Source of the DNA: Gulosibacter sp. 10
GTDB lineage: Bacteria; Actinomycetota; Actinomycetes; Actinomycetales; Microbacteriaceae
NCBI RefSeq assembly: GCF_900163695.1
Contig: NZ_FUIC01000053.1
Span: 1-64,000 of the forward strand
DNA: 64,000 bases
Direction of reading: 5' to 3'
The first letter of the stretch is position 1. Every line of letters begins with the position of its first letter. The notes beneath the pieces are model-generated. The model was not told the origin of the DNA. It searched no databases and saw only the letters and a program-made list of their open reading frames with translations. Made by a program: the position numbers and the translations under genes. Shown piece after piece: positions 7,420 through 9,962 of the stretch.

Positions 7420-7466
7420 AGCAACCGAGGTTGACAGACCGCCGTTTAGCAACGTAGGTTGACACC
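7420..7466 (+). promoter_or_regulatory. Leaderless promoter overlapped by twin palindromes
   Basis: TTGACA at 7431-7436 and TAGGTT at 7455-7460 are separated by 18 bases; RNA would start 7 bases after the -10, which is exactly the A of the ATG at 7467, so the transcript is predicted to have no leader. The 17-base block AGCAACNNAGGTTGACA occurs twice (7420-7436 and 7448-7464). Each copy holds a palindrome, CAACCGAGGTTG (7422-7433) and CAACGTAGGTTG (7450-7461), centred 28 bp apart, one on the -35 and one on the -10. This is a classic layout for repression, probably by the HTH protein encoded immediately downstream. Confidence 0.75.
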
Positions 7467-7712
7467 ATGGAGTCGACCGAAGTGGCGGCAGTCGCCGCCG
7501 ATACGAGCGATCCGCGCGCGGGCCTGCGCGCGGTCGCGGTGCTGCGCGCACTCGCGGACACCCTCGAGCTGCGCCAGGTCGAGGCCGCGCTGCGCTCGGG
7601 CATGACCTGGCAGGACGTCGCCGACGCGCTCGGCATCACGCGCCAGGCCGCCCACAAGAAGCACGCCAAGCGCATCGACCCCGCCATCCCCGTGCCCAGG
7701 AGGAAAGCATGA
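7467..7712 (+). CDS. Small helix-turn-helix protein, probable autorepressor
   Basis: An 81-residue DNA-binding protein. A single helix-turn-helix lies at about residues 48-70 (TWQDVADALGITRQAAHKK), and the rest is a short alpha-helical N-terminal region. No ligand domain is present, so any signal must come through a partner. Its stop overlaps the start of the Clp_N-SRPBCC gene by four bases (ATGA), so the two are translationally coupled and probably made in equal amounts. The promoter carries two palindromes, and I infer that this protein binds them. No Shine-Dalgarno sequence precedes the ATG, in line with a leaderless mRNA. Confidence 0.85.
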   Translation: MESTEVAAVAADTSDPRAGLRAVAVLRALADTLELRQVEAALRSGMTWQDVADALGITRQAAHKKHAKRIDPAIPVPRRKA

Positions 7713-8677
7713 GCAAGATGACCCGCATCGTCAGCACGAGCCACACGCTCTCGGTAACCGCGCTCGAGGAGGCCTCGCGGCAGGGCCTCCGGGACGCCGA
7801 CATCGAGCACCTCTTCCTCGCGCTCCTGCTCTCCGAGCAATCCGCGGGCCACGCGCTGCGGAGCCTCGGCATCACGCTCGACGCGGCCCGAGCCGCCATC
7901 CGCGAGCAGCGCTCGGCCCAGCTCGGACAGCTCGGGATCGATGCATCGCTGCCGGACGCGCAGCGCATCGTCTCGCCGCACGAGACGAGCGGCTACGAGT
8001 GGAAGCAGCGCGCCGCCGACCTGATCGGCCGCGCCGCCGGCAAGCACGCCGACGGCAGCGCCTCATCGGTGCTGCGCGAACTGGTGGTCGAGCCGAGCGG
8101 AACGATCGGCGATCTGCTCTCCCACCTCGGCACCTCCCCGGAGGCCGTGCTCGGCGCCCTGGACCGGGCGGAGGCCGAAGCGCCGGATCCCTCCTCGCGC
8201 GAGAGGCGGAGCCGCATCCCCGTGCACGAGACGTTCGTGCCGGCCTCCCCGGAGGAGACCTGGGCGTTCCTCGCGGAGCCGCTGAACATCCCCTCCTGGG
8301 ATCCGAACGTCGACTCCGTCGAGCCGGCGAAGGACGGGACCTGGCTCGGTCACGCGCCGACCGAGCGGCCCGATGGCAAGCCGCTGCGCGTGAAGCCGCA
8401 CTTCCGCAGGAAGCGGTTCGAACGGGTCGTGGCCCGCGAGCCCGAGCACCTCGCCTGGCGGACCGCGTACCCGGATGCGCCCCGGAGCCGGCCGGTCATC
8501 ACGAACTTCATGCTCTCGCCCGCGACGGGCGGCACCCGCGTGACGATCGGCATGGCCTGGCTGCGACGGCCGGGCTGGCGCCGGCTCGTCGGCCTGCCCC
8601 TCCGGCCGTTCCAACGCTATCTCGTCTGGATGACGCTCGTGCAGATCGGCAGCTCGGCGAGCCGGCGGTTCCGGTAG
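7709..8677 (+). CDS. Clp_N domain fused to SRPBCC domain, no ATPase
   Basis: A 322-residue protein with two parts. Residues about 8-150 form a double Clp_N repeat, the substrate and adaptor binding domain of ClpA/ClpC (EEASRQGLRDADIEHLFLAL and, in repeat two, SSVLRELVVEPSGTIGDLL). Residues about 168-315 look like an SRPBCC/START-type ligand pocket (VHETFVPASPEETWAFLAEP, then FMLSPATGGTRVTIGMAWL). There is no Walker motif, so it cannot unfold proteins. Stand-alone Clp_N proteins such as mycobacterial ClpC2 are known to bind Clp-targeting antibiotics and to act with a repressor. The ATGA overlap with the HTH gene suggests the two proteins form a sensor-repressor pair. The ligand is unknown. It ends 5 bp from the convergent TetR gene. 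Confidence 0.85.
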   Translation: MSKMTRIVSTSHTLSVTALEEASRQGLRDADIEHLFLALLLSEQSAGHALRSLGITLDAARAAIREQRSAQLGQLGIDASLPDAQRIVSPHETSGYEWKQRAADLIGRAAGKHADGSASSVLRELVVEPSGTIGDLLSHLGTSPEAVLGALDRAEAEAPDPSSRERRSRIPVHETFVPASPEETWAFLAEPLNIPSWDPNVDSVEPAKDGTWLGHAPTERPDGKPLRVKPHFRRKRFERVVAREPEHLAWRTAYPDAPRSRPVITNFMLSPATGGTRVTIGMAWLRRPGWRRLVGLPLRPFQRYLVWMTLVQIGSSASRRFR

Positions 8678-8682
8678 CCGGG

Positions 8683-9282
8683 CTACGCTTCGAGCGGCCG
8701 GACCACACCCGCGACGACGCGGGCGAGCGCCTCTCGGCCGTCCTCGAAGCCGATCTGCTCGAGCACCAACGCCCGCGCGATCCCGTCCGCCGCGCCGAGC
8801 ACCGCGTGCAGCGCCGCATCCGAGACCTCGCCGCGCTCGACGAACGGCTCGAGGGCGCGGCGGCAGGATGCGCTGAACTCGACGTCGGCCTCCTGCCGCA
8901 GCTCCTCGAGCTCCGTCGAGCCGGAGAGCGCCCCGGCCACGCCGGGCAGCTCGGTGCTCTCGGCGTCGATGCAGCCGATATACGCGTCCGAGATGAGGCG
9001 CGAGACCTCGCCGAGGCAGGCCGGGGTGCGCTCGATCGCGGCATCCAGCGCGAGGCGCGTCCGGCTCTTGAACTCGGCGTAGAGCTCGGCCAGCACCGCC
9101 GACTTGGTGCCGAAGTGCTGGTAGACGAGCGGCTTCGTGACACCCGCCCGCTCGGCCAGCCGCGCGAGCGTGAGCGCATCGCTCCCCTCGTCGCGGATGA
9201 ACTCCCGCGCGACGTCCAGGAGCTGCGCGTGCCGGTCGTCATAGGACATCCGCTTGCGCGCGCCGGTCGCGGTTTCCGCCAT
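8683..9282 (-). CDS. TetR-family transcriptional regulator
   Basis: A 199-residue one-component repressor. The TetR_N helix-turn-helix covers residues about 17-64 (LAERAGVTKPLVYQHFGTKS); the remaining helices form an unclassified ligand domain. Start at ATG 9282, with GGGAGG 8 bases upstream. It is divergent from the NAD(P)H oxidoreductase gene, and the 89-bp gap contains a nested palindrome that is its likely operator, so it probably represses itself and the two downstream redox genes. The inducer is likely a quinone, nitro compound or other electrophile, judged only from the target genes. Confidence 0.92.
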   Translation of the reverse strand: MAETATGARKRMSYDDRHAQLLDVAREFIRDEGSDALTLARLAERAGVTKPLVYQHFGTKSAVLAELYAEFKSRTRLALDAAIERTPACLGEVSRLISDAYIGCIDAESTELPGVAGALSGSTELEELRQEADVEFSASCRRALEPFVERGEVSDAALHAVLGAADGIARALVLEQIGFEDGREALARVVAGVVRPLEA

Positions 9283-9301: not shown

Positions 9302-9345
9302 CGATAAGTTACTTTTCGTAAGTTACTGAAAGTAACTTCTTATCG
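9302..9345. promoter_or_regulatory. Nested palindromic TetR operator
   Basis: The perfect inverted repeat AAGTTACTGAAAGTAACTT (9320-9338, 8-bp arms) is preceded by another copy of its left arm, AAGTTACT (9306-9313), 14 bp away. The whole is bracketed by CGATAAG (9302-9308) and CTTATCG (9339-9345), themselves reverse complements. The AT-rich block is striking against the GC-rich background and lies between divergent tetR and oxidoreductase genes. Three half-sites suggest two repressor dimers or overlapping sites. Confidence 0.8.
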
Positions 9346-9371: not shown

Positions 9372-9962
9372 ATGCACGCACTCGTCCTCTACGCCCACCC
9401 CGAAGCCGACTCGCTGACCGCGAGCCTCTCGCGCCGGCTCGCGGAGCGCATCCGCGAGACGGGATCGACCGCCGAGATCGCCGATCTCGCGGGCGAGGGC
9501 TTCGACCCCCGCTACTCCGAGGCGGATCTCGCCGTGCTGCGCGGCGCCGGCGAGGCGCCCGAGGACATCCGCCGCGAGCAGGAGCGCATCGAGCGCGCCG
9601 ACGCGATCATCCTCGTGCACCCCGTCTACTGGTGGGGCATGCCGGCCCTGCTCAAGGGCTGGCTCGATCGCGTGCTCACCTTCGGCTGGGCATTCGGCTC
9701 CGAGGACGCGACGGCCCTCGCCGGCCGCGACGTGCACCTCGTGCGCCTCGCGGGCAACGCCCCCGCGACCTACGACAACCACGGCTACCGCGACGCCATC
9801 CGCACGAGCGTCGAGCACGGCGTCTTCGAGTTCGTCGGCGGCCCCGTGGCCTCCTCCCACCTCGTCCACTCCGCCCCCGAGGGGCTCGAGTCCCGCCTCG
9901 ACGAGACGGTCGACGCGCTCGTGGCCTCGGTCGCCGCGGCCCGCGCGGACGCACTGGTCTGA
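9372..9962 (+). CDS. NAD(P)H-dependent oxidoreductase, flavodoxin-like fold
   Basis: Quinone or flavin reductase of the Flavodoxin_2 (NQO1/MdaB-like) family, 196 residues. Signatures are the N-terminal VLYAHPEADSLTASLSRRLA, which binds the flavin phosphate, and the central IILVHPVYWWGMPALLKGW followed by DRVLTFGWAF. The enzyme is expected to carry out two-electron reduction of quinones in the cytosol. It is the first gene downstream of the TetR operator and is followed after 23 bp by the LLM-class flavin oxidoreductase gene, so the pair probably forms an inducible detoxification operon. The ribosome site is weak (GGAAGG, 12 bases from the ATG). Confidence 0.9.
   Translation: MHALVLYAHPEADSLTASLSRRLAERIRETGSTAEIADLAGEGFDPRYSEADLAVLRGAGEAPEDIRREQERIERADAIILVHPVYWWGMPALLKGWLDRVLTFGWAFGSEDATALAGRDVHLVRLAGNAPATYDNHGYRDAIRTSVEHGVFEFVGGPVASSHLVHSAPEGLESRLDETVDALVASVAAARADALV

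Follow-up and report, generated by a model that had tools for sequence, protein, structure and literature searches.

The window, a 64,000-nucleotide stretch of the Gulosibacter sp. 10 genome (contig NZ_FUIC01000053.1, positions 1 to 64,000), carries at positions 7420 to 8677 an operon of two genes, encoding an 81-amino-acid helix-turn-helix (HTH) protein and a 322-amino-acid protein in which a double Clp_N domain is joined to an SRPBCC domain. Judged by sequence comparison, the operon looks like a putative autorepressor of the mycobacterial ClpC2 type, split over two genes and enlarged by the SRPBCC domain, and on the Clp_N tree the enlarged proteins fall into a single clade. The preferred reading, held at a probability of roughly 0.55, is a two-gene autorepressing sensor, the split homologue of ClpC2. 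In the open reading frames (ORFs), the two genes share the ATGA at 7709-7712, the coupling overlap already described in an earlier sequence-only reading of this DNA. The elements of the operon are arranged as follows.

7420..7435, + strand: distal palindrome AGCAAC-CGAG-GTTGAC, its right half within the -35 element TTGACA (7431-7436); conserved, with twin sites at 27/29 Clp_N-SRPBCC loci.
7448..7463, + strand: proximal palindrome AGCAAC-GTAG-GTTGAC, holding the -10 element TAGGTT (7455-7460); conserved at 28/29 of these loci.
7431..7467, + strand: promoter predicted to be leaderless, with TTGACA and TAGGTT 18 bp apart and transcription beginning at the A of the ATG (7467), from pattern conservation.
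7467..7712, + strand: 81-amino-acid HTH protein of the ClpC2-N/RelI family, a predicted autorepressor, from profile matches and a structure model.
7698..7704, + strand: AGGAGGA, a Shine-Dalgarno-like sequence serving the second gene, read directly from the sequence.
7709..8677, + strand: 322-amino-acid Clp_N-SRPBCC fusion protein, from Pfam and predicted structure.
7709..8188, + strand: ATPase-less double Clp_N domain, residues 1-160.
8204..8674, + strand: SRPBCC domain, residues 166-322.

ClpC2 binds cyclomarin A and represses its own gene (Taylor et al. 2023, PMC10030653). According to that paper, its operators (CGTCAAC-n5-GTTGACG) lie on the -35 and -10 elements at a position suggesting a leaderless transcript, cyclomarin A hinders DNA binding and releases repression, and the crystallized fragment is interpreted as a dimer domain. 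The split HTH proteins align with the ClpC2 N-terminus in hhalign at 98% (E 2.1e-13) over 52 columns, the recognition helix included. The HTH profile A3 reaches the antitoxin RelI (9sdc) at E 5.9e-10 and ClpC2 (8ADA) at E 2.9e-5, compared with a mere 0.68 against 8ADA for the single 81-residue sequence, whose structure model has four helices at a predicted local distance difference test score of 90.9. The PDB entry 8ADA (ClpC2 4-72) ends at residue 72 with ...GKSMGV, immediately before the recognition helix; in 13 of 14 relatives, as their genes are started, the GVTKQ segment has its G at residue 71. This end point may be a reason why the HTH of ClpC2 went unrecognised in the structure. The n5 form of the operator stands upstream of the 14 fused genes, which come from one genus, and its distances to the start codon match those published for ClpC2. 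The kinship is closer than the sequence-only reading had put it, since the 81-residue protein and the ClpC2 N-terminus are homologous and the operators occupy the same two places.

A 13-row HTH profile has matches in 147 of the 299 genomes of the window's family, and one of 36 rows has matches in 280 of the 394 class genomes. The loci examined from these searches (70 and 68, respectively) are the best matches plus a hand-chosen spread, a non-random sample in which a Clp_N ORF lies downstream of the HTH at 68/68 class loci and the Clp_N-SRPBCC fusion is present at 20/70 family loci. The resulting table, which also takes in loci from outside these two sets, holds 159 HTH-family loci: 95 with Clp_N, 29 with Clp_N-SRPBCC, 16 with ATP-binding cassette (ABC) genes, 14 fused HTH-Clp_N (ClpC2) and 5 others, the HTH directly preceding a Clp_N or Clp_N-SRPBCC gene at 124. 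It excludes L185 (HTH absent), L173-L178 (weak matches, other HTH proteins) and 11 duplicates. A hand rule places L188 and L189 among the fusions, which Pfam confirms; L115 (the same as locus L191) is kept there with a Polyketide_cyc2 score of 26.1 against a cut-off of 27.4, and the ABC rows comprise 15 small HTH genes before an ABC exporter plus L077, where an HTH-DUF3887 protein is encoded ahead of an ABC gene. In L076 and L077 the HTH domain heads a protein of about 200 residues, identified as DUF3887 by Pfam in L077 and similar-looking in L076; fusions of RelI homologues to DUF3887 or DUF2812 have already been published (PMC13284704). The window's own genome holds a second HTH of the family (L073, G000:C18:7629-10332), which overlaps a 645-amino-acid ABC exporter gene and has the twin sites GTCAATGAATGTTGAC and GTCAACTAATGTTGAC. 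The fused-ClpC2 genus also has a split HTH and Clp_N operon (L154-L156), with the proximal site alone found; it may be the ClpC3 named in a review.

The exact operator motif occurs in the 3.65-Mb genome at the two window sites, with no other copy. Across the table the proximal site is found at 28/29 Clp_N-SRPBCC, 90/95 Clp_N, 15/16 ABC and 14/14 fused loci, and both sites at 27/29, 81/95, 14/16 and 13/14; the twin counts are low estimates, as the automatic choice of start misses the twin site in L096, L119, L134, L145 and L160. In the Clp_N-SRPBCC loci the proximal site lies at position -19 or -20 relative to the start codon. Shuffled upstream regions contain the proximal site at about 1.5% (1.45% for Clp_N-SRPBCC) and both sites at 0.07% at most (0.03% for Clp_N-SRPBCC), with the start held fixed in this control and the best start per locus used in the table. 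The table demands CAA/CAG and TTG/CTG cores; an earlier ranking of palindromes had mixed true sites with chance ones. The promoter pattern TTG[AC]-N17..21-TAnnnT-N4..9-start is present at 27/29 Clp_N-SRPBCC, 69/95 Clp_N, 11/16 ABC and 13/14 fused loci, versus 0.07 to 0.29% of shuffles (0.07% for Clp_N-SRPBCC), and a generic sigma-70 scan calls no promoter at the window site. A lax motif scan performs no better than shuffles, so the operator is judged by its conservation and the exact genome count. The small HTH protein with a twin-operator promoter of leaderless type, as first described from the window alone, is a conserved arrangement.

The operator type appears to follow the recognition helix of the HTH. 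Counted over rows where a proximal site is present and the helix can be read, an RQS helix goes with an xCTG half-site in 12/12 cases and a non-S helix in 5/136 (for a 13th RQS locus, L065, the table lists no proximal site); KQT goes with CAGC in 3/3. The KQAAQKR helix of fused ClpC2 is accompanied by a 5-bp spacer in 14/14, versus 2/134 for split and other loci. Few evolutionary events lie behind these pairings. A Clp_N subfamily (L053, L056, L058, L061, L098 and others) has an RQSVHAK or RQSVHTK HTH and the operator GTCAGT-n4-ACTGAC. At the 15 ABC-exporter loci, this HTH family and sites of this kind occur with no Clp_N gene adjacent, which suggests that the sites go with the HTH.

The 322-residue protein consists of a complete double Clp_N (1-160), in which Pfam and the predicted structure agree that the AAA+ ATPase is absent, and a C-terminal SRPBCC domain (166-322) that scores above the Pfam cut-off and has the matching fold in the predicted structure, as the sequence-only reading had proposed for this half. 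A pattern-based scan of 84,980 species, which detects close relatives only, finds 12 loci in Rathayibacter, Microbacterium and Marisediminicola. The HTH gene lies upstream of the fusion in 12/12, with an overlap of 4 nt at ten loci and of 1 nt at the other two, so that the pair seen in the window recurs in all of these neighbourhoods. At E <= 1e-10 the fusion profile gives 14 matches in the 394 class genomes, 13 with SRPBCC and 1 with Clp_N only; these are lower bounds, as five candidates per genome were scored, and the 13 loci, which span the family groups f1, f4, f24, f27 and f34, overlap with the 12. An intact HTH gene is present in 11/13. The exceptions are L184, where it is truncated, and L185, where it is reduced to a 3' tail; in both the Clp_N-SRPBCC ORF is intact and the promoter is gone. 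An ORF beside the truncated gene of L184 presumably resembles IstB. A quick Clp_N tree accounts for the 29 SRPBCC rows by a single change (branch support 97), and so does the HTH tree (support 95, few columns), so the HTH and its partner seem to have travelled together. Searches of the open-licence literature gave no description of the fusion, in agreement with the original impression that it is undescribed.

The surface by which ClpC2 contacts cyclomarin is rebuilt in this clade. The published ClpC2 contacts are F96, F172 and E181 (PMC10030653). By alignment these equal ClpC F2, F80 and E89, where the window reads M, W and G and the fused ClpC2-like proteins keep all three in 14/14. Of the 29 SRPBCC rows, 14 have F and 7 have L at the F2 position, and 23 have W in place of F80. 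Further ClpC positions, such as I13, Q17, L92 and L96, which we take to be members of the drug-binding face, change as well: I13 to S in 24 rows and Q17 to M in 22, with L92 and L96, like E89, variable. Split Clp_N proteins keep the surface more often (F2 in 58, F80 in 48, K85 in 67 and L92 in 59 of 95). A cyclomarin-type trigger was considered for the window's protein and rejected on these contacts; it is unlikely, and the suggested alarm for cyclomarin-type attacks on the ClpCP protease is not supported, yet F2 is still F in 14/29 rows. Of three compounds binding ClpC2, desoxycyclomarin alone induces it, according to a 2026 study (PMC12913811).

Set beside the gene anatomy, the homologies, the predicted folds and the conserved operator with its place and its covariation with the HTH, the parts that we infer are DNA binding, the contact between the two proteins, the ligand, the direction of the switch and the sponge role. 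HTH dimers would bind both palindromes, covering the -35 and -10 elements, and silence a leaderless transcript with both reading frames, that of the HTH protein and, translationally coupled to it, that of Clp_N-SRPBCC. The latter would be the receiving half, contacting the HTH protein as Clp_N is joined to the HTH in ClpC2; this contact is suggested by the domain-fusion argument, both being one protein in 14 loci. A ligand or unfolded client filling the Clp_N groove or the SRPBCC pocket would lift repression, and derepression would supply more Clp_N-SRPBCC to soak up the ligand. That the HTH protein binds DNA is likely, and is the step held with most assurance. That its partner acts as a ligand-responsive co-repressor is projected from ClpC2 and may be put at about even odds, and the sponge function and its ligand are guesses.

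Several points weigh against the two-gene sensor. The RQS helix has a single origin on the Clp_N tree, so the 12/12 count approximates one evolutionary event, the Fisher p of 4e-14 overstates the RQS/xCTG link, and an independent-pairs test, with one pair, has no power. A structure search with the HTH model returns weak HTH matches, with 8ADA not among the matches listed. The trigger cannot be copied from ClpC2, because the cyclomarin contacts are replaced. Two of 13 fusion loci, L184 and L185, have no intact HTH gene, so the partner may function alone; they argue mildly for this, with the reserve that their promoters are also lost. Finally, the DNA contact of ClpC2 has been placed in its Clp_N half, where R185A/R189A reduces binding; DNA binding is impaired too in a dimer mutant and in the isolated Clp_N half (PMC10030653). 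Of the 95 split Clp_N proteins, 60 and 26 have R at the equivalents of R185 and R189 (ClpC 93 and 97 by alignment), and the SRPBCC clade does not conserve these positions, yet the operator type is common to all. As these residues vary while the operator type is shared, we infer that the N-terminal HTH reads DNA and that the Clp_N half modulates.

In a plainer account, the HTH protein is a simple autorepressor and Clp_N-SRPBCC mere cargo, chaperone-like or ligand-binding, with no part in repression. Both the 15 ABC-exporter loci, where the same HTH family and operators occur, and the two fusion loci that retain the partner without an intact HTH gene would suit it. It is nevertheless unlikely, given that ClpC2 unites HTH and Clp_N in a single polypeptide, in which a ligand of Clp_N controls repression, and that the HTH precedes a Clp_N or Clp_N-SRPBCC gene in the great majority of the table. 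Clp_N-SRPBCC could also be an adaptor or decoy of ClpCP that competes for ClpC clients, with the HTH protein as a ClpCP substrate and the protease load setting repression; this leaves the SRPBCC domain unexplained and sits poorly with the rebuilt drug-contact surface, and appears improbable.

Least probable by far is a toxin-antitoxin pair, with a RelI-like antitoxin and Clp_N-SRPBCC as the toxin. The homology of the HTH to RelI and the overlapping bicistron behind a twin-operator promoter speak for it, but other members of the HTH family precede ABC exporters, the PADLOC library matches neither protein, and the partner ORF persists intact in L184 and L185, though the promoters there are lost too. 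The same two loci, with a truncated and a lost HTH gene, disfavour a toxin held by the repressor.

ClpC2 has been studied as a protein that blunts cyclomarin; its autoregulation and drug-sponge role, and the similarity of the RelI and ClpC2 HTH regions, are already known. A broader reading, offered tentatively and rather doubtful as a whole, is that Clp_N is a ligand-sensing co-repressor module across Actinomycetes, with class-wide HTH/Clp_N switches of which ClpC2 is the one-piece form; in the SRPBCC clade the groove would no longer read ClpC1 drugs, the added pocket would be a second input, and the operon would be the receptor for a hydrophobic compound. If this were true, ClpC2 would read DNA via its N-terminal HTH, whose recognition helix lies just beyond the end of 8ADA; that operators of this kind precede the HTH also at loci lacking an adjacent Clp_N gene points to the same reader. 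The split operons assign the two jobs of ClpC2 to two proteins, so that a pair of small proteins would suffice to test the question. Judging by the SRPBCC clade, Clp_N sensors seem to have gained new ligand domains, and natural signals may thus extend beyond the ClpC1-directed drugs.

Around the operon, a neighbour search over 11 fusion loci (the window and 10 of the 12 close relatives, L011 and L013 being excluded for short flanks) finds that the window frames with relatives elsewhere are solely antisense readings over the two genes, as are all of the 14 most widespread matches listed. The 322-residue protein has no plasmid match at E 1e-5, and the 81-residue protein no phage match at E 1e-3. 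Downstream lies a divergent pair, a TetR regulator (8683-9282, - strand) and a flavodoxin-fold oxidoreductase (9372-9962, + strand), whose intergenic region contains, near 9305-9345, a repeated operator resembling GTTACTTTC/AAGTTACT.

In the open-licence literature, among the matches listed, no description was found of split HTH/Clp_N operons, of self-resistance to ecumicin through Clp proteins or of a ClpC2-type operator before ABC-exporter genes; for Clp_N with an HTH in operons, the search found only work on vWA-MoxR systems with ClpN repeats. Among known systems, the RelI antitoxin family shares a homologous HTH with the 81-residue protein, and an HHpred match between RelI and the ClpC2 HTH region is reported (PMC13284704); RelI pairs with the rRNA-cleaving toxin RelS, and the available part of that source names no Clp_N or SRPBCC partner gene for it. 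SRPBCC/Polyketide_cyc2 proteins share the fold and Pfam score, whereas the domain of the window's clade sits behind Clp_N. The split HTH and Clp_N operons of Actinomycetes (95 of the 159 loci) agree with the window operon in HTH family, operator positions, leaderless-type start and the Clp_N gene immediately downstream, and differ in lacking the SRPBCC domain. Mycobacterial ClpC2 (Rv2667 type) is alike in its ATPase-less double Clp_N, its homologous HTH and its two palindromes on the -35 and -10 elements, with a start suggesting a leaderless transcript. In ClpC2, however, the HTH is on the same polypeptide, the operator spacer is 5 bp, the left half-site is GTCAAC and the operator ends one to two nt before the start codon; in the window, the HTH has its own gene, the spacer is 4 bp, the left half-site is AGCAAC, 3 nt separate the operator from the ATG, the cyclomarin contacts are replaced and an SRPBCC domain is added.
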